From Flavobacterium aquidurense (lineage in GTDB: Bacteria; Bacteroidota; Bacteroidia; Flavobacteriales; Flavobacteriaceae), in contig FNPS01000016.1 in assembly GCA_900107365.1 (NCBI GenBank), positions 1 to 64,000 on the forward strand: a stretch of 64,000 bases of DNA, read 5' to 3'. Of this stretch, positions 14,638 to 30,127 are shown one piece after another. A program made the position numbers and the translations under genes. The notes under the pieces are model-generated. The model was not told the DNA's origin, made no database searches, and worked only from the letters and a program-made list of their open reading frames with translations. The first letter of the stretch is position 1. The number at the start of each line of letters is the position of its first letter.

Positions 14638-16164
14638 TTAATATTGTGGGTTTTGGTCTAAGTTTGGATTGTTATCCACATCAACCTGCGGTATTGGCAT
14701 TCTTTGATTTTTACCTACTTTAAAGTTTTTAAAATCAGGATCACGAAGCGAAATTTTGTCAACAGCAGCCTGAGAATCTAAATCTCCCCAACGTTTTAAA
14801 TCTTCCCAACGAACACTTTCGCCAGCCAATTCTAAAACTCTTTCTGTTTTTAATCTTTCTAAAAATTTATCATGATCGTTTCCAATTTCAGGATGAGCAA
14901 CCGCTAAAGTATTCATGTTTACACGTGCTCTCACCTGATCTACATATTGATAAGCTCCGGCAGTATTTCCTGTTTCGTTTAATACTTCTGCATAACGCAA
15001 TAAAATATCAGCATAACGAACCAATCTGTAATTTACCTGGCTGTAATAATCTTCATTATTTCTGTAATAATCACGGCTTCCTTTTCTGAACCAAGCTTCA
15101 TCTGCACCCCATTCCCAATTTTTACCGTACGTTTTATCTCCAAAATCGGCTAATAAATTTGGATAAAATAAAGTCCATCTTAAGCGATCATCAAGATTAC
15201 CAGTCTTATTTTTTTCTTGTTTGAAAGCATTTACTAACCAGAAACGAGCCTGACCGTCAGACCATCCAATTCCTCTTGGTGCAAAAAACTGACTACGGTT
15301 ACTGGAAAGTGCAGCATTTTGATCTTCTCCTGTTCCACCTTTTCTTTGATCTCCAAACTGAATTTCAAAAACAGATTCGGAATTGTTTTCATGTGTATCA
15401 GTAAAATTGTCCCTGTAATTTGTAGCTAAACTGTATTTCGCGCCAGGACCAGAAATTAAATATTCAAGAGCTGTTTTTGCCTCCGGCCATTTGTGTTGCT
15501 GCATGTATGCTTTTGCCAAAAAAGCTTCTGCTGCGCCTTTATCTGGTCTTCCTGTTTGATCTGCAGGCCATGAAGCAGGCAAATCGGCTAAAGCCTCATT
15601 TAAATCTTTTTCAATTTGAGCCCAAACTTCGGTTACATTTTTTTGCTGTGGTAAATCGGCTGGCGTAGATGGTTCTAGAACCAACGGAATATTTTCCCAA
15701 AGAATGGCTGCATAGTAGTAATGCAAAGCTCTGAAGAATTTTGCCTGAGCAAGAATTTTCTTTTTATCATCTTCATTTTGGAATGTGATATTCGGAACAT
15801 TGGCCAATACCTGATTGCATCTAAAAACAGCTTTATAGGTATCTCTCCATGTTACTGCATTTCCTTCCCAAAAATTATAATTGATATAATTGAATCTCGT
15901 CCAGTCTGCTAATTCTGTCCACGGACTATTACTGAATCCTTCGTCAGAAGTTAAATCCAGACGGAAATAAATCCATCTTGCCCATAAACCATCTTTATAA
16001 AACATGGCGTAAATTGAATTCACACCGGCTTGTGCATCACTTTCCGTTTTCCAATATTGATCTACTGTGATATCATTTGGGCTGTTCAGATCTAATTCCT
16101 TTTCACAAGATGATGCAAAAAAGAGACCTAGAAAAACTACGGTTGTTAGTATTATTTTTTTCAT
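14638..16164 (-). CDS. SusD/RagB-family outer-membrane lipoprotein (PUL 1)
   Basis: A 508-aa lipoprotein (MKKIILTTVVFLGLFFASSC) with the SusD helical fold: KELDLNSPNDI after the lipid Cys, the N-terminal SusD-like region with YKAVFRCNQVLANV, TPR-like helices (FFRALHYYYAAILWENIPLV), and the C-terminal RLVRYADILLRYAEVLNE ... VRARVN ... ERVLELAGESVRWEDLKRWG typical of the family. It forms the lid of the SusC transporter and captures glycan at the cell surface. It follows the SusC gene by 16 bp. No separate surface glycan-binding protein gene is evident in this PUL. Confidence 0.95.
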   Translation of the reverse strand: MKKIILTTVVFLGLFFASSCEKELDLNSPNDITVDQYWKTESDAQAGVNSIYAMFYKDGLWARWIYFRLDLTSDEGFSNSPWTELADWTRFNYINYNFWEGNAVTWRDTYKAVFRCNQVLANVPNITFQNEDDKKKILAQAKFFRALHYYYAAILWENIPLVLEPSTPADLPQQKNVTEVWAQIEKDLNEALADLPASWPADQTGRPDKGAAEAFLAKAYMQQHKWPEAKTALEYLISGPGAKYSLATNYRDNFTDTHENNSESVFEIQFGDQRKGGTGEDQNAALSSNRSQFFAPRGIGWSDGQARFWLVNAFKQEKNKTGNLDDRLRWTLFYPNLLADFGDKTYGKNWEWGADEAWFRKGSRDYYRNNEDYYSQVNYRLVRYADILLRYAEVLNETGNTAGAYQYVDQVRARVNMNTLAVAHPEIGNDHDKFLERLKTERVLELAGESVRWEDLKRWGDLDSQAAVDKISLRDPDFKNFKVGKNQRMPIPQVDVDNNPNLDQNPQY

Positions 16165-24175: not shown

Positions 24176-24480
24176 GTGGCAAAATCGTGGCAACACATGT
24201 TTAAGAAAAGTAAAAATGCAGTAAATAAGAGGGTTCCGGGCTTAGGGTTCGAATCCTGCTCTCCCCACGGAAAGGCCTAAAAGGAGGAAAACTTAAAGTT
24301 TTCAATCTTTTCAAAAAGCCACAAAAAATGTCTGAAGACCTGCAAATTCAACGATTTGCAGGTTTTTTTTATTTTAGGCCTGTTTTCAATATTTATAAAT
24401 CCTCACAAAATTAAAGGTGCAGAATCGGTGCACTTTCCGGCTGGAGTGAATACCTTTTTTGCCACAAAAAGCTAAGGCGT
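24176..24480 (+). repeat. scar repeat unit: tRNA 3'-end fragment plus terminator
   Basis: One of the best copies of the window's repeat family. It has GTGGCAAAATCGTGGC, about 50 bp spacer, a T-arm with the invariant GGTTCGAATCC and a TCTCCCCA acceptor-like end, a linker rich in AAAAGGAGG/TTTTC words, the CCTGCAAAT...ATTTGCAGG terminator, then a second GTGCAGAATCGGTGCAC motif and tail. No tRNA D-arm or anticodon arm is present. Copies lie at 33.66-33.90 and 57.40-58.00 kb, with partial copies near 0.5, 3.7 and 32.0 kb. Confidence 0.6.
24339..24370 (+). terminator. intrinsic terminator in scar unit
   Basis: CCTGCAAAT and ATTTGCAGG (24339-24362) pair in a 9-bp stem around a 6-nt loop, followed by eight T. 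The same hairpin recurs at 33760 and 57855. Confidence 0.8.
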
Positions 24481-24703: not shown

Positions 24704-24827
24704 GGTTCGAATCCCGTTCCCGCTACTAAGACAAAAAGCTTCAGAGAAATCTGGAGCTTTTTTTTGTTTTAACTATCTTTGGCAAGATTCGTTGCGTTCA
24801 CGAGTGGGACGCTCGCGCCAGCAGGGG
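24704..24827 (+). repeat. left flanking repeat of the SIR2-HerA island
   Basis: GGTTCGAATCCCG followed by TTCCCGCTACT resembles the T-arm and 3' acceptor strand of a tRNA. A terminator follows (24737-24765, AGCTTCAGA/TCTGGAGCT, eight T), then CGTTCACGA and CTCGCG words. A diverged copy with the same order of elements lies at 28421-28548 beyond the island. Confidence 0.6.
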
Positions 24828-24880
24828 AATCCCTAGCCGAAATATTTTCTAGAGAGAATTAAAACTAAACTAACCAAAAA

Positions 24881-26074
24881 ATGATCGCAAACAATATTGA
24901 AAATATCAAATTAAGAATTAAAAAATATCTTGAGCTGGAGAATGTAAGTATTTTATTTGGTGCTGGTTCAAGTTTTCATTTAGGTGCACCAGTTATTAGA
25001 ACTATTCCTCAAGAATTAAAAAGCGCATGTCTAACAGAAATAGCTAATTATTTTGGGGAGGGTGCTGATCCTTCATTTGAAGATTTATTTAATTGTTTAC
25101 AAGCAGATCGCTATTTACATGAAATGAGAGGTCAGGATATTACAGCTATTAACGCATCAATGGTAAAAATGCAAAAATGGTTATTTGAGCAATGTGATAC
25201 CAATAAAACTACCATTAATAGTAATTATAAATCAGACTCTAAATTACTTAATAATAGATATCATTATCACGAAGTTTTAGTTAAAAAGTTATTACAAAGA
25301 CCAGTACATTTAAAAAGAGTCAATCTTTTTACTACTAATTATGATATGGCATTTGATTATGCTTTAGATAATTTAGGGGTGCATTATGTAAATGGCTTTA
25401 TGGGGGTACATAATAGATGCTTTCGTCCAGAAGTATACGATTACGACTTGTACTATCCCGGTCAAAGTGTAATAGGAAAAGTACACAGAGCTGAAAAGGT
25501 TTTACGTTATTATAAAATGCATGGTTCATTATCATGGGTATCTTCTCCTCCATCTATTTCAAATACTTATGGTATTAAAGAAATTCCTTTGAATGGAAAT
25601 TTTACCCCTGATGAAAACAATGAAATAATGATTTATCCATGTGTTAGTAAAAAATCATTTACGTTAGATTTACCTTACTCTGAATTGTTTAGACAGTTTT
25701 CTCATGCAATTAACCAACCACAGTCTGTATTGATTTGTGTTGGTTATTCATTTTATGATGAACATATAAATGATATCATTAAGCAGGCATTGTCAATTCC
25801 ATCATTTACTTTAATCATAGCAAATTTTTCCCCTTCTATAGATCAAGATTCTGAAATTGAAAGATTAAGAGCTTTAGGTGATAAACGAATTATCATTTTA
25901 GATCAAGAAGATCCCAACCAGTCAACTTTTATAAGTTTTGTTGACAAAATAATGCCTGATTTGTACGAAGAAGAAGAACTTTCTTATGTAGCAGAAACAT
26001 TACAAAAACTTTATCCATCAAATAGCGAAGAAGAAGTAAAATTTGATGAAGATAGCGAAACTAAACAAAACTAA
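24881..26074 (+). CDS. SIR2-domain NADase-like defence protein
   Basis: A 397-aa cytosolic protein with a SIR2-type Rossmann fold: nucleotide-binding SILFGAGSSFHLGAP (GAGSS 27-31), FTTNYD (150-155, with the Asn and Asp typical of defence SIR2 domains), the catalytic His in MHGSLSW (H214), and VGYSFYDEHI (288-297). Such domains degrade NAD+ on phage infection. It is encoded 6 bp upstream of a HerA-family ATPase, the arrangement of the described SIR2-HerA anti-phage system, in which the two proteins form one large complex. The pair is bounded by direct repeats. Confidence 0.88.
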   Translation: MIANNIENIKLRIKKYLELENVSILFGAGSSFHLGAPVIRTIPQELKSACLTEIANYFGEGADPSFEDLFNCLQADRYLHEMRGQDITAINASMVKMQKWLFEQCDTNKTTINSNYKSDSKLLNNRYHYHEVLVKKLLQRPVHLKRVNLFTTNYDMAFDYALDNLGVHYVNGFMGVHNRCFRPEVYDYDLYYPGQSVIGKVHRAEKVLRYYKMHGSLSWVSSPPSISNTYGIKEIPLNGNFTPDENNEIMIYPCVSKKSFTLDLPYSELFRQFSHAINQPQSVLICVGYSFYDEHINDIIKQALSIPSFTLIIANFSPSIDQDSEIERLRALGDKRIIILDQEDPNQSTFISFVDKIMPDLYEEEELSYVAETLQKLYPSNSEEEVKFDEDSETKQN

Positions 26075-26080
26075 TTTCTA

Positions 26081-28186
26081 ATGAGTAGCGATAATAGATT
26101 GATTGGAAGGGTTTTATCTGTAGATAATTTTAGGGTTTTTATAAAAATTGAAGATGATTTAAGAGGAACATATAAAAGTGGTGTTTTAGATATATATGAA
26201 GTAGCTAGAATTAATTCTTATCTAATAATTCCTGTGGGAGCAGATCGCGTGGTGGCTTTAATTACAAGGGTAACTATGAAAGAAGAAGTTGAATTCGGAA
26301 AAAATTCTACCTCTATTTCATTACCCACTTCTTCAAGATATATATCAGCTACTATGTTGGGGACTATTGCAAATAATGATAGTAATGAGAAATTTGTCCA
26401 AGGAGTCTATAATTTCCCAACATTAGATAACCCGGTATGGTATGTAACTGAAAAAGATTTGCTTCATATTTTTGATGATAAACTTGATGTAGCTCAAATA
26501 AAATGGGACAAAGATTTTTATTTACCAGTAGGAACCTCACCTGCATTTTCTAATTATAAAGTAAAAATTTCACCAGACCAGTTTTTTGTAAAACATGCAG
26601 CAATTTTAGGAAATACTGGTTCGGGTAAGTCGTGCACATTGACTTCAATTTTGAGGAATTTGTTCAGATACGATTATAAAGGAAGTAATCTTAATAATGC
26701 ACATTTTGTAATTTTCGATACAAATGGTGAATATAAAGATGCATTTTTGCCAGAGCAAGAAGTTTTGACCACTTTAGATGATAAGACCCAAAAGGAATTA
26801 GAGTTAATAAACGCGAATTATTATGGTGGCGAAGATAAAGTTCAAGTTCCCTATTGGCTAATGAATTGGTCTGACTTTAGAGCATTACTAAATCCGAGTG
26901 ATGCCACACAAGCTCCTTTATTAAATAGTGCAATTGGTTTAGCAAAAAATAATGAGGAGAGTTTAAATATTTCAATTTTACCAATTTATTTAAAAGCCGA
27001 TGTGGAAAGCATTTTATCTTGTTCAACTGAAGAACTTAAAAAAAGGACATGGGATGCGGGAGGAAATTGGAGATGGAAAGCTAATAATGAAATTTTGAAT
27101 ATTGCAGAAGCTATACGCCCATTTGATGATGAATTGGCTACTTTGCTTTCTCATTTGGGAGGAGAAGTAAATTTTAATAATGCGGGATTACAGACTCCAA
27201 TTAGAGAATCTATTTATAATCGGTTAAATAAATTACTTACACTAGCAGTCGACATTCAAATTACAAGTTCACATAATATCGATCTACCTATCTATTTTAA
27301 TTACCAACAACTTTGTAATAAATTTTTAGATGCTGCAATTAAAAATGAAGGCTCAGGAAATACAAGATTGAATGAATTTATTTCAACTTTGCGATTAAGG
27401 ATGAATAGCTTTTTAAATGATAAAAGAATGGCTATTCCTTTGATGCTAAAAAATACAGAAGAAATAAATAAAAATGTATTGCCTCAGTTTTTAGCTTTCC
27501 TTTTAGGGGATTATAATAAGGTCTTTTCATCTGAAACTGAAAACCATTTTGTGAAAAAATATAATGATTCGACAGGTTTTTTTGATTTGAAAAGAACACA
27601 TCAAATAAATATCATAGATGTTTCTCAATTGCCTTTTGAAGTTTTAGAAACTATAACAGCACTATTAGGCCGAATTATTCTAGAATTTGTTTCCTATTTT
27701 GTTCCAAGTGATAGGGGTAAATTTCCGATAGTAATCATATTAGAAGAAGCTCAAAACTATATTGCTGAAAACAAATATTCTGTTGCAAAAACAATATTTG
27801 AAAGAATCGCACGTGAAGGTAGAAAGTATGGTATTTCATTAATCGTAAGTAGTCAAAGACCTTCAGAATTATCAAAAACAGTTTTATCACAATGTAATTC
27901 ATTTATCATTCATCGCTTACAAAATCCAGAAGATCAAAAATATATAAGAGGACTCGTTTCTAGTGCTAATGCAGATATTTTAGAACAACTACCCGTTATT
28001 CCACAACAACATGCAATTATCACAGGTGATTGTGTTCGAGCTCCAATTCAAGTTAGAATTGATGATGTTCATCCAACACCCAACAGTCATAATCCAAAAT
28101 ATATTGAAAGTTGGTTGGCTTCGAGTACAATACCATATGAGGCAACAGTTAATAAATGGATAGGAAATTCACAATCAGCGGAATAA
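26081..28186 (+). CDS. herA: HerA-family ATPase of the SIR2-HerA defence pair
   Basis: A 701-aa FtsK/HerA-type motor ATPase. The N-terminal ~120 residues form a HAS-barrel-like domain (LIGRVLSVDNFRVFIKI). The ATPase core has Walker A GNTGSGKS (177-184), FDTNGEYKDAF, Walker B VIILEEAQNY (~550), the sensor SSQRPSELSKTVLSQCN (~590) and an arginine-finger region HRLQNPEDQKY (~611). HerA hexamers normally work with NurA in end resection; no NurA is present and the partner is the SIR2 protein directly upstream. It likely assembles with SIR2 and regulates its NAD-consuming activity or acts on phage DNA. Confidence 0.9.
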   Translation: MSSDNRLIGRVLSVDNFRVFIKIEDDLRGTYKSGVLDIYEVARINSYLIIPVGADRVVALITRVTMKEEVEFGKNSTSISLPTSSRYISATMLGTIANNDSNEKFVQGVYNFPTLDNPVWYVTEKDLLHIFDDKLDVAQIKWDKDFYLPVGTSPAFSNYKVKISPDQFFVKHAAILGNTGSGKSCTLTSILRNLFRYDYKGSNLNNAHFVIFDTNGEYKDAFLPEQEVLTTLDDKTQKELELINANYYGGEDKVQVPYWLMNWSDFRALLNPSDATQAPLLNSAIGLAKNNEESLNISILPIYLKADVESILSCSTEELKKRTWDAGGNWRWKANNEILNIAEAIRPFDDELATLLSHLGGEVNFNNAGLQTPIRESIYNRLNKLLTLAVDIQITSSHNIDLPIYFNYQQLCNKFLDAAIKNEGSGNTRLNEFISTLRLRMNSFLNDKRMAIPLMLKNTEEINKNVLPQFLAFLLGDYNKVFSSETENHFVKKYNDSTGFFDLKRTHQINIIDVSQLPFEVLETITALLGRIILEFVSYFVPSDRGKFPIVIILEEAQNYIAENKYSVAKTIFERIAREGRKYGISLIVSSQRPSELSKTVLSQCNSFIIHRLQNPEDQKYIRGLVSSANADILEQLPVIPQQHAIITGDCVRAPIQVRIDDVHPTPNSHNPKYIESWLASSTIPYEATVNKWIGNSQSAE

Positions 28187-28420
28187 TATTTTTTTTAAAA
28201 TAAAAATAATAAATCTACTTAACAGCGCAGAAATGTATCTGAAATTGAACTGATCTACAAAACAAAAGTAAAAAACTCCGAAAGACTACAAATCTAATCT
28301 TCAAAAAATGCATACAAACTAGCTCTTTCATCTGGGACATTAGAATAGAAATTCTAGGACAGTTTAACCCCCGAATTTAATACGGAATGATATTTATTTT
28401 CTTTAAATCATCCACAAAAT

Positions 28421-28548
28421 GGTTCGGAAATTGTCCCGTTAGGGCTACTAAAACAAAAGCTTCAGAGAAATCTGAAGTTTTTTTGTTTTTTAATTTCATT
28501 GAAAGTCTAATTTGTTACGTTCACGAACTTGATACTCGCGTTAGCGGG
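28421..28548 (+). repeat. right flanking repeat of the SIR2-HerA island
   Basis: The order matches the left copy (24704-24827): a decayed T-arm (GGTTCGG), CTACTAAAACAAAAGCTTCAG with terminator, then GTTACGTTCACGA and ACTCGCG. The T-arm is more degenerate than on the left. Confidence 0.6.
28460..28484 (+). terminator. intrinsic terminator in right island repeat
   Basis: CTTCAGA-GAAA-TCTGAAG (28460-28477) is a perfect 7-bp stem with a GAAA loop, followed by seven T. Confidence 0.8.
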
Positions 28549-28645
28549 AAATTTAGTAAAATGGGGAATTACACATAGACAAAAAATTATTGAATCTCTT
28601 AAATAATAAATTCATAACCTTTCAGGTTTAACCCTATTTAAACAT

Positions 28646-30127
28646 TTAATCCAACTTAAACCATTCATTTACTTCTTCGGCTATAGTTTCTTTAATTTCA
28701 GCATTTTCAAATTCATTTGTTATTGAATTATATTCGTAATCTTTCTGCCATTTTTTATAATGTAAAGACACTTGTTCAATTGCATCGCAAACAAAATTCA
28801 GTTCATTATTAGTCATAATCGGATGCAGTGATAAACGTACCCAGCCCGGTTTATTTATTTGATTTTTCTCTAAAAGTTCGTTTGTAATTATTGCTGATTT
28901 CTTTTCGTTTATATTAAATAAATAATGCGCATAAGTACTTGCACATGACTAGCCGCCGCGAACCTGAATCCCGAAACGGTCATTTAAAAGCCTTACGATT
29001 AAATTATAGTGAATATCTTCAATTACAAAAGAAACACAGCCGATTCTTTCCGTTTTTAAATCTCCTAAAATTGACAAACCTTTTACTTTTTGAAGTCTTG
29101 AAAAACAAAGAGCAAGCAGTTCTTTTTCTCTGTTTTTGATGTTTGAAACTCCCATCTTGTCTTTTAATTCTAAAGCTAAAGCAGCTCTTATTACTTGTAG
29201 AAAGCCTGGTGTTCCGCCATCTTCTCTAACTTCTATGACCTCGCTATAACAATATCTGCCTAACGGATTTGTCCATCTTACATTTCCACCGCCCGGATTA
29301 TCGGGAAAATCTGCTTTGTATAATTTTTCATTAAAAACCAAAACGCCGCAAGTTCCCGGGCCGCCTAAGAATTTGTGAGGAGAAAAGAAAATGGCATCTA
29401 ATTGCTGTTCCGAATCTTTTGGGTGCATATCGATTTTGACATACGGTGCCGAAGCTGCAAAATCAACAAAACAAAGTCCGCCGTTTTGATGCATGATTTT
29501 GGCCAATTCATGATAAGGCGTAATAATTCCTGTAACATTTGAACAAGCTGTAAATGAGCCTATCTTTAAGCTTCTGTCAGCATATTTTTTAATTTCTTCG
29601 GAAAGAATATTGGGATCCACTAAATTATTTTCATCTGGTGGTAAAATCACAACATCAGCATTTGTTTCATACCACGAAACCTGATTGGAATGATGCTCCA
29701 TATGTGTAATAAAAACAACTGGTGTATCGTTTTCATCATCTTTTCGTAAACGCATAATGCGATGTAATTTTGACAAAGCAGCCGTCATTCCGGTTCCGGT
29801 TGTTACTAAAACATCAGAATCATTTGCGTTTACTGACTTTTTAATTATATCTCTCGCATATTGATAAGCATAAGTTGAAGTCTTTCCTGTCTGACTAGAA
29901 AGTGAATGCGTATTGGCAATCATTGGTCCAATTTTATTGAGCATAATATCTTCAATTGGTGCGTATAATCTTCCGCTGGCAACCCAATCTGCATAAAGCA
30001 GGTTTTGCTTTCCATAAACCGATTTAAAGCGGTGATCTACTCCTACTGTATTTTCTCTAAATTTAGAGAAGTAACACTCCAATTCTATTGGTTTTGTTGT
30101 CTCAATAGCATTCATTTCCTTTATCAT
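28646..30127 (-). pseudogene. class V PLP-dependent aminotransferase, split by an in-frame TAG
   Basis: The first 392 codons encode a fold-type I aminotransferase related to cysteine desulfurases: VTTGTGMTAAL, HMEHHSNQVSW, FVDFAASAPY and the PLP lysine K252 in SPHKFLGG. A TAG at 28949-28951 ends the frame just after FGIQVRGG. The same frame continues open for 100 more codons to 28646, encoding SCASTYAHYLFN and KPGWVRLSLHP, which is the expected C-terminal domain. In relatives the motif is RGGCxCAG, so the TAG stands where a conserved Cys would be. It may be a pseudogene, a sequencing error or a readthrough case. It is the last gene of the SAM-riboswitch unit. Confidence 0.75.

Follow-up and report, generated by a model that had tools for sequence, protein, structure and literature searches.

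A SIR2-HerA operon in Flavobacterium aquidurense as a probable member of a genus-wide family of integrase-less cassettes at tRNA-fMet 3' ends

A two-gene SIR2-HerA operon lies alone between direct repeats in a stretch of 64,000 nucleotides from Flavobacterium aquidurense. This stretch, referred to here as the window, is nearly all of a contig of 64,768 bases (C20) in a genome of 5.44 Mb and 29 contigs (coded G000). We propose that the pair belongs to a family of integrase-less cassettes, spread across the genus, whose target is the 3' end of the initiator tRNA gene (tRNA-fMet) and which would be served in trans by the enzyme of a large serine recombinase (LSR) element; judged from sequence comparison, this explanation as a whole has a probability of about 0.6. 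The SIR2-HerA pair itself is probably such a cassette, moved at least originally in trans. We think that the copy in the window is a genuine member of the family, perhaps one that is no longer mobile.

The two genes are adjacent, on the same strand and full-length in appearance, with family-level matches to the SIR2-HerA anti-phage system, members of which deplete NAD and protect against phage. As compared with known SIR2-HerA loci, the gene arrangement is the usual one and just the packaging is unusual. No other open reading frame (ORF) of at least 80 aa lies between the repeats, and neither of these two is a recombinase, in agreement with the original prediction, made from the letters alone, of a defence pair standing by itself between repeats about 3.7 kb apart with no recombinase of its own. 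No tRNA gene is called anywhere in the 64-kb window. Coordinates of the features at the locus are given in Table 1.

Table 1. Features of the SIR2-HerA unit and its surroundings (window coordinates)
Feature	Position	Strand	Remarks
Relic of another insertion: tRNA-Tyr-like 3' end copy GGGTTCGAATCCTGCTCTCCCCAC	24245-24268	+	GTGGCAAAATCGTGGCAAC precedes it at 24176-24194
Left boundary: 23-base copy of the tRNA-fMet 3' end, GGTTCGAATCCCGTTCCCGCTAC	24704-24726	+	2 differences from the tRNA-fMet end GGTTCGAGTCCTGTTCCCGCTAC
Cassette left end: type T1 terminator, TAAGACAAAAAGCTTCAGAGAAATCTGGAGC..	24727-24770	+	Hairpin z -4.5; terminator scan
Dispersed repeat resembling a repetitive extragenic palindrome (REP), left, GCGTTCACGAGTGGGACGCTCGCGCCAGC	24794-24822	+	Own-genome search
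SIR2 gene	24881-26074	+	397 aa; best PADLOC SIR2 model, E 1.2e-86; Pfam SIR2_2, 1.2e-9
HerA gene	26081-28186	+	701 aa; best PADLOC HerA model, E 8.3e-170; Pfam DUF87, 5.9e-23
Cassette right end, type E, GGTTCGGAAATTGTCCCGTTAGGGCTAC	28421-28448	+	28 bases; 3 mismatches to the degenerate E/M pattern, 2 to the E consensus
Second T1 terminator, after the right end	28449-28490	+	Hairpin z -4.8; terminator scan 28455-28482
Second REP-like repeat	28517-28545	+	Own-genome search
Flanking class-V aminotransferase	28949-30127	-	TAG stop (28949-28951) leaves 392 aa; 490 and 492 aa in the two relatives read

The repeats are real. Positions 24704-24826 and 28421-28549 are identical in 97 of 132 alignment columns (120 of them ungapped), and their local alignment score of 120 compares with 50 for the best of 1000 dinucleotide-preserving shuffles and with a maximum of 39 when nearly 3000 randomly drawn pieces of the window are used. 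Both copies show the order that had been predicted, GGTTCG, CTACTAA, a terminator hairpin and then CGTTCACGA..CTCGCG. Their description as T-arm-like applies to the left copy, which starts with the 3' end of tRNA-fMet, the rest of that tRNA being missing, but not to the right copy, which starts with a different, element-borne end that we designate E. A search of the genome with bases 4-73 of the left repeat (end plus terminator) finds matches behind intact tRNA-Met(cat) genes on C24 and C14, behind tRNA-Glu on C24, and at tRNA-less places on C14, C6, C22 and C24. The two intact tRNA-Met(cat) genes, at C14:248320-248392 and C24:13409-13481, carry nearly the same 3' end as the left repeat, as the original prediction had anticipated of an intact tRNA somewhere in the genome, and we take them to be initiator tRNAs. 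Bases 93-130, for their part, match a dispersed REP-like repeat present at 15 genomic places with up to 3 mismatches, both window copies included. Judging from these searches, the repeat is two unrelated things: an att end with a terminator, found at tRNA-linked boundaries, and dispersed REP-like words. We therefore reject CGTTCACGA/CTCGCG as part of the att site, these words being dispersed and the REP-like word occurring in the first 400 bases of just 11 of the 68 cassettes described below; the terminator, likewise counted at first as part of the repeat, is instead the left end of each inserted unit.

In an alignment of twelve terminator sites from this genome, a conserved block stands upstream of most tRNA-less copies. 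The block comes in two types, M, which reads GGTTAGATATTTGAATGCTTCCCGCTAC, and E, for which the best genus-wide representative is GGTTCGAGAATTGTCCCGTTAGGGCTAC. A single degenerate pattern for E and M matches 56 of 299 Flavobacterium genomes (55 of the 253 that are at least 90% complete), with no match to the reversed pattern among the matches listed, while outside the genus it matches 4 of 336 genomes, each at two to three mismatches, as against 8 genomes for the reversed control. One genome outside the genus, G312, has two matches on one strand, 1.6 kb apart. Within the genus the sites cluster on the same strand, often 0.6-10 kb apart, with seven in 23 kb of G604, for example. We annotated 20 such array loci together with 23 loci anchored on Era, which adjoins tRNA-fMet in F. 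aquidurense. A tRNA-Met is called in 22 of the 23 Era loci, 21 times in the usual orientation and once, in G005, on the other strand. Its 3' end reads ..TTCCCGCTAC and is followed by differing terminators: type T1 (AAAGCTTCAGAGAAATCTGGAGC), type T2 (a hairpin, then in most cases GTGGTTCGAAA), type T3 (ACACCACTT..) or the terminators of larger elements. As the sequence after the tRNA varies in this way, the inserts bring a left-end terminator with them and have E, M or a tRNA-like end ('t') on the other side.

From these loci, 68 cassettes of at most 7 kb were delimited in 34 genomes, with a median length of 1,888 bp; 7 of 75 intervals exceeded 7 kb and were left out. The loci were picked for their sites or by kinship, so the frequencies that follow are not genus-wide rates, and kept intervals may hide missed boundaries (as in G629) or host genes (a pseudouridine synthase, an M13 peptidase), which makes the cargo counts upper bounds. 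Twenty-eight of the cassettes lie directly behind the tRNA-fMet end (matched over 38 bases), and 46 start with a T1-type terminator. The SIR2-HerA unit is among the latter. It begins with a copy of the tRNA 3' end, here a fragment serving as anchor, followed by T1, and it finishes with E followed by a terminator, which we read as the left end of a former next unit whose genes are gone. The scripted boundary test (5 mismatches over 32 bases) missed its left anchor, and the unit was added by hand. Left and right end types are associated: T2 units end in E and M in a ratio of 8 to 3, T1 units in a ratio of 10 to 32 (Fisher p 0.004). The 137 cargo ORFs run in both directions, 57 on the strand of the ends and 80 on the opposite one. 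It had been asked whether the repeats might be just as common at loci without inserted genes; most E/M-bounded units do hold genes, but 5 of the 68 have no ORF above the size limits used and three intervals measure just 103-112 bp. The presence of the same T1 terminator behind tRNA-Glu had raised that gene as a second anchor, a suspicion we rejected when none of the 68 units proved to lie directly behind it. In the arrays checked, tRNA-Glu stands at the far end (L203 and L222, for example). Behind tRNA-Glu in G638 (L230), a tail-sheath-like protein and its neighbours, named by eye, suggest a phage-tail-like cluster.

Whole units recur at different places. A 758-bp unit is 97% identical between G482, where it lies behind tRNA-fMet, and G604, where it belongs to an array on a contig other than that of the Era locus; the 500 bp upstream show no similarity, and downstream just the terminator of about 40 bp is common to both. 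A 1.79-kb unit of G485 and G624 is 99.1% identical, with upstream DNA at 91% and downstream DNA without similarity, while G548 and G629 have a first unit in common (76%) and then diverge. A candidate pair in G581 and G644 is not clean, since, the terminator excepted, it aligns only after the first 300 bases. A unit of 364-370 bp encoding a GIY-YIG protein occurs at full length in G477, G515, G581, G595 and G611 and inside a longer interval in G042. The reading of the window repeats as attL and attR of a small cassette at a tRNA 3' end gains from this genus-wide picture, in that the right-end type bounds many small units, and loses in that the window copy sits at a 23-base tRNA fragment with no intact tRNA.

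The enzyme that moves these units is most likely a large serine recombinase, a suggestion that draws on its position at the tRNA and on its pairing with the right ends. In 7 of the 23 Era loci, an LSR gene is found at tRNA-fMet (the copy in G477 being behind a 364-bp unit), and in five of the seven, those printed and directly behind the tRNA, the recombinase reads into the tRNA with the C terminus GTGLEPVTFGL. There are two main lineages. As assessed by Pfam for one member each, LSR1 has the Resolvase and Recombinase domains and LSR2 the Recombinase domain only, with a Zn ribbon below the Pfam cut-off in both. The first right end downstream of an LSR1 gene is E in 5 of 6 resolved elements (G053, G376, G477, G049 and C15 of F. 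aquidurense itself), and that downstream of an LSR2 gene is M in 10 of 11 (G573, two in G601, two in G612, G569, G496, G049, C6 of F. aquidurense, and, weakly, G544). Put the other way, E follows 5 of 6 LSR1 genes but 1 of 11 LSR2 genes (17 resolved elements, counts entered by hand; Fisher p 0.0054). For six of these elements (the second of G601 and of G612, and those of G569, G496, G595 and G000-C6), the stretch from the LSR gene to the right end was partly read and otherwise taken from the site listing; in G049, reading covered all but 6.3 kb of the LSR1 element, and both tallied G049 sites are accounted for. G049 carries both lineages at one locus: behind tRNA-fMet comes an LSR1 element, whose E abuts the left end of an LSR2 element, which in turn finishes with M.

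Both lineages are also present in F. aquidurense. An LSR1-like gene at C15:443643-445196 is paired with E at C15:412538, and an LSR2 gene (97%) at C6:203289-204926 with M at C6:242971. The former belongs to a 32.7-kb element (G000:C15:412538-445196; L285-L287) that begins behind a partial tRNA-Met end, presumably of the elongator type, with an intact tRNA-Met 5.4 kb beyond the element. Since the tRNA-Met whose partial end precedes this element is a different one, E ends do not depend on a single tRNA. Further elements lying behind tRNA fragments are found at G612-C13, at G052-C95 and on C6 of F. aquidurense, and they resemble the window site, where 23 tRNA bases remain. A possible hint comes from two inner words. 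GGTTCGA is present in 13 of 14 LSR1-type left ends (and in 3 of 3 of the sister type LSR1b), and GTTAGAT in 13 of 14 LSR2-type left ends, in each case within the recombinase gene and some 100 bases into the element; each is the word that starts the partner right end (L254 and L229, for example). Among small units, GGTTCGA is present in 9 of 11 T2 left ends, including all 8 of those ending in E, but in only 1 of 10 T1 units ending in E; GTTAGAT is absent from all 32 T1 units ending in M. The SIR2-HerA unit, with T1 on the left and E on the right, lacks the GGTTCGA inner word. Since both words lie in the coding sequence of related genes, the match may be coincidence.

The mechanism that we envisage runs as follows. 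The target would be the 3' terminus of the initiator tRNA-Met gene, or a copy of it, where a circular unit with its right end joined to its left terminator would recombine at the GCTAC of the tRNA end or fragment. Each integrated unit starts right after the terminal GCTAC with its own terminator, followed by one to a few accessory genes, and its 28-base right end, E or M, re-creates GCTAC. The tRNA sequence would be preserved, and as it gains the terminator of the unit, the tRNA would stay terminated. New units would probably enter next to the tRNA, displacing older ones downstream. The recombinase would be supplied by an LSR element in the same cell, the LSR1 lineage with E and the LSR2 lineage with M; as the SIR2-HerA unit has an E end, an LSR1-type enzyme, such as that encoded on C15, would be the likely helper in trans. 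The unit itself sits at a stray 23-base stretch of tRNA-fMet end sequence that another element probably left there, and its cargo would be expected to act as an ordinary SIR2-HerA defence. A more general proposal is that the genus keeps an integron-like cassette economy on a tRNA 3' end, with minimal recombinase-free units stacked at tRNA-fMet or stray copies of it by two LSR lineages, each with its own right-end type, and with SIR2-HerA as a defence system packaged in this way; we put it forward tentatively, at slightly less than even odds.

Several observations weigh against this explanation. In the window there is no tRNA at the unit, the E end departs from the consensus at 2 positions, the repeats agree at just 97 of 132 columns and the adjacent aminotransferase has a premature stop, so that the unit may be an immobile relic. 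Cassettes and LSR elements do not have the same left ends (T1 and T2 on the former), and serine recombinases normally need both attP half-sites; the cassettes may for this reason be poor substrates or use another enzyme. The pairing of lineages and right ends has its exceptions: an LSR1 element with an M-like end (G042), an LSR2 element whose right end is E-like and 67 kb away (G595) and one in which M is only weakly matched (G544). Many LSR copies were left out of the tally as unresolved, namely LSR1 copies in G595, G578, G581, G052 (two), G508, G057 and G460, LSR2 copies in G573 (a second one), G578, G673, G618 and G643, and more distant relatives of both. Our scans point to no transfer vehicle: searches of IMG/VR for the exact E and M words, which variants would escape, gave no match, and neither did a 64-base M end in INPHARED or PLSDB. 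Finally, with the neighbouring aminotransferase as anchor in 61 genomes of the genus, nine relative loci (78-89% identity) were fetched and searched, with ORFs listed for two, and they hold no tRNA, no repeats and no SIR2-HerA. The gene order on that side differs as well in these relatives, so they offer no clean empty site, and we rejected them as evidence either way.

In the Flavobacteriaceae, SIR2-HerA pairs are present in 2 of 397 genomes, that of F. aquidurense included. In named records, and within the limits used, 38 of 39 homologue loci lack all of the words E, M and T1, the remaining one (L146) having a chance-like E with 4 mismatches, and a tRNA of any kind is found at 8 of the 39. 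The lack of E, M and T1 ends at these loci implies that cassette packaging is not a habit of SIR2-HerA. The nearest homologue, in Paenimyroides baculatum (L134; HerA 86%), likewise has no such ends; it comes straight after a gene that by eye looks type I restriction-like, and its DNA similarity to the window covers the two genes and little more (24832-28164). From this comparison, the operon was probably picked up as cargo. The same homologue, together with the dispersed nature of the REP-like part and the lack of an empty site among the nine relative loci, could be taken to mean that the repeats are merely duplicated terminators and REP elements, and that SIR2-HerA arrived by some other route, such as homologous recombination of a defence locus, and came to lie between them by accident. 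We regard this as improbable, as the right end is a specific 28-base E that forms the boundary of units in many genomes; the restriction of the Paenimyroides similarity to the genes also fits capture of cargo, a point which alone is not decisive against accident. The unit might also be attributed to a tyrosine integrase. The repeat end GTGGCAAAATCGTGGCAAC, built on GTGGCA, is presumably linked to tyrosine integrases, and with the tRNA-Tyr-like end nearby it looks like the end of another element, so that the unit could be part of a neighbouring degraded element (24176-24268) with a tyrosine recombinase as its enzyme. A split gene near the C6 array (L023:8971-10015), read by eye as a tyrosine recombinase, would be in keeping with this. 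We find the idea very improbable, given that the gene at the tRNA in 7 of the 23 Era-tRNA-fMet loci is a large serine recombinase and that recombinase lineage goes with right-end type, although no search aimed at tyrosine recombinases was made.

It is also conceivable, though in our view unlikely, that the unit is what remains of an LSR island that ended at E and lost its recombinase and transfer genes, leaving SIR2-HerA between attL and attR as a now fixed, decayed cis-mobilizable remnant that was never a cassette of its own. LSR1 elements do end in E, relics surround the site (such as the tRNA-Tyr-like end at 24245-24268), there is no tRNA and the repeats have diverged; such decay is, moreover, a described route to cis-mobilizable elements (CIMEs) in the available portions of PMC5704250. 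The left end of the SIR2-HerA unit, however, is T1, the commonest type on small cassettes (46 of 68) and unlike the left ends of LSR1 and LSR2 elements, and small units recur whole at different places. We continue to favour a cassette moved in trans.

Defence is not the usual cargo of these units. The commonest Pfam matches among the 137 cargo proteins are Beta-lactamase (PF00144; 7), AraC-type helix-turn-helix (7), GIY-YIG (6), acetyltransferases (4) and SPFH (3). With PADLOC, the 25 of 66 families listed were matched by one protein each and comprised SIR2, HerA and mad8 (all three matched by the window pair), NsnB, PDC-M55A and PDC-S09, and ten cargo proteins checked singly gave no PADLOC match. 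On this profile we rejected the notion of E/M cassettes as a defence-island device, and the implication that defence genes are typical of such packaging is not upheld.

Several known systems invite comparison. Integron gene cassettes are small, promiscuous gene units in arrays beside an anchor; here, the anchor is a tRNA, the candidate enzyme is a serine recombinase and the cargo lies in both orientations. The tycheposons of Prochlorococcus are tRNA-associated cargo elements with partial tRNAs at their ends and a tyrosine recombinase, unlike which the present units occur in another phylum, have another anatomy and have a serine recombinase as candidate. Nearer are the staphylococcal cassette chromosome (SCC) and pseudo-SCC elements, in which serine recombinases act at the 3' end of a conserved gene and composite tandem arrays include members without a recombinase; these differ in their target, the protein gene rlmH, in their larger size, in host phylum and in att sequence. 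SCC and the ssrA islands of Dehalococcoides are the closest precedents. As described in the portions of PMC3146451 available to us, the latter are serine-recombinase elements, arranged in tandem and bounded by short repeats of the RNA 3' end, with a conserved motif just upstream of the repeat and with diverse cargo, including CRISPR; 16 of 31 islands have an integration module, and the 15 without one are possible cis-mobilizable elements. They have in common with the present family a serine recombinase at the 3' end of a stable RNA gene, tandem stacking and integrase-less members. They differ in residing at the tmRNA gene rather than at tRNA-fMet, in size (vcrABC islands are about 12 kb) and in inserting at the T-loop rather than at a terminal GCTAC (PMC3146451). 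Two right-end types with two recombinase lineages, and a terminator-first left end, are not met with in those portions of PMC3146451. CIMEs, as presented in the available text of PMC5704250, are integrase-less segments between attL and attR beside related elements at one site, and are defined as having lost their integration and transfer genes. By sequence the SIR2-HerA unit has the anatomy of a CIME, both putative att ends being kept with no integration or transfer gene among ORFs of at least 80 aa inside. Unlike CIMEs as portrayed there, the units described here are mostly about 0.4-4 kb long, recur whole in different contexts and mostly have one of a few standard left terminators.

Islands with serine recombinases, arrayed in tandem at the 3' end of a stable RNA gene and including integrase-less members, are thus already known (PMC3146451), as are integrase-less att-bounded elements in general (PMC5704250). 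Searches of the open-licence literature turned up no tandem E/M-type arrays in this genus. As far as these searches show, the novelty lies in the very small size of the units, their anatomy with a terminator in first place, the association of two right-end types with two recombinase lineages, and SIR2-HerA as cargo. If the proposal is true, single genes or operons, defence systems included, would be able to pass between species of a large environmental genus although they encode no integrase. The ends (E, M and the T1/T2 terminators) are short and diagnostic, so arrays can be mapped in genomes and accessory genes, possibly new defence genes among them, found; whether each recombinase lineage is specific for its right end lends itself to a direct test.

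Some further observations concern the surroundings of these units. The tRNA-Tyr-like relic in the window differs at 1 position from the 3' end of a TGTAAATCTG-bearing tRNA in the cluster at C14:320-322 kb, which we take, from that arm, to be tRNA-Tyr. A GTGGCA-repeat end like that at 24176-24194 also stands just upstream of the LSR2 element of F. aquidurense (G000:C6:199000-207000; L314), as if the stray copies of the tRNA-fMet end in the window and on C6 had been left by one kind of older element. REP-like repeats form clusters of mixed orientation at G000:C27:220390-222855 and 243552-245107. IS200-like (Y1_Tnp) genes lie near tRNA-end copies at G000:C24:12141-13117 and C14:246568-247023 (the C14 gene below the Pfam cut-off), and that on C24 is about 0.35 kb from a REP-like repeat, a possible pair of REP and REP-associated tyrosine transposase (RAYT). 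The GIY-YIG mini-units (364-370 bp, with a tRNA-like right end and sometimes in tandem) are seen at L244:1374-1738, L243:1408-2148, L279:9964-10334 and L218:9602-9972, and on the minus strand of L283 at about 14967-15704; a GIY-YIG nuclease at a tRNA end could itself promote insertion.

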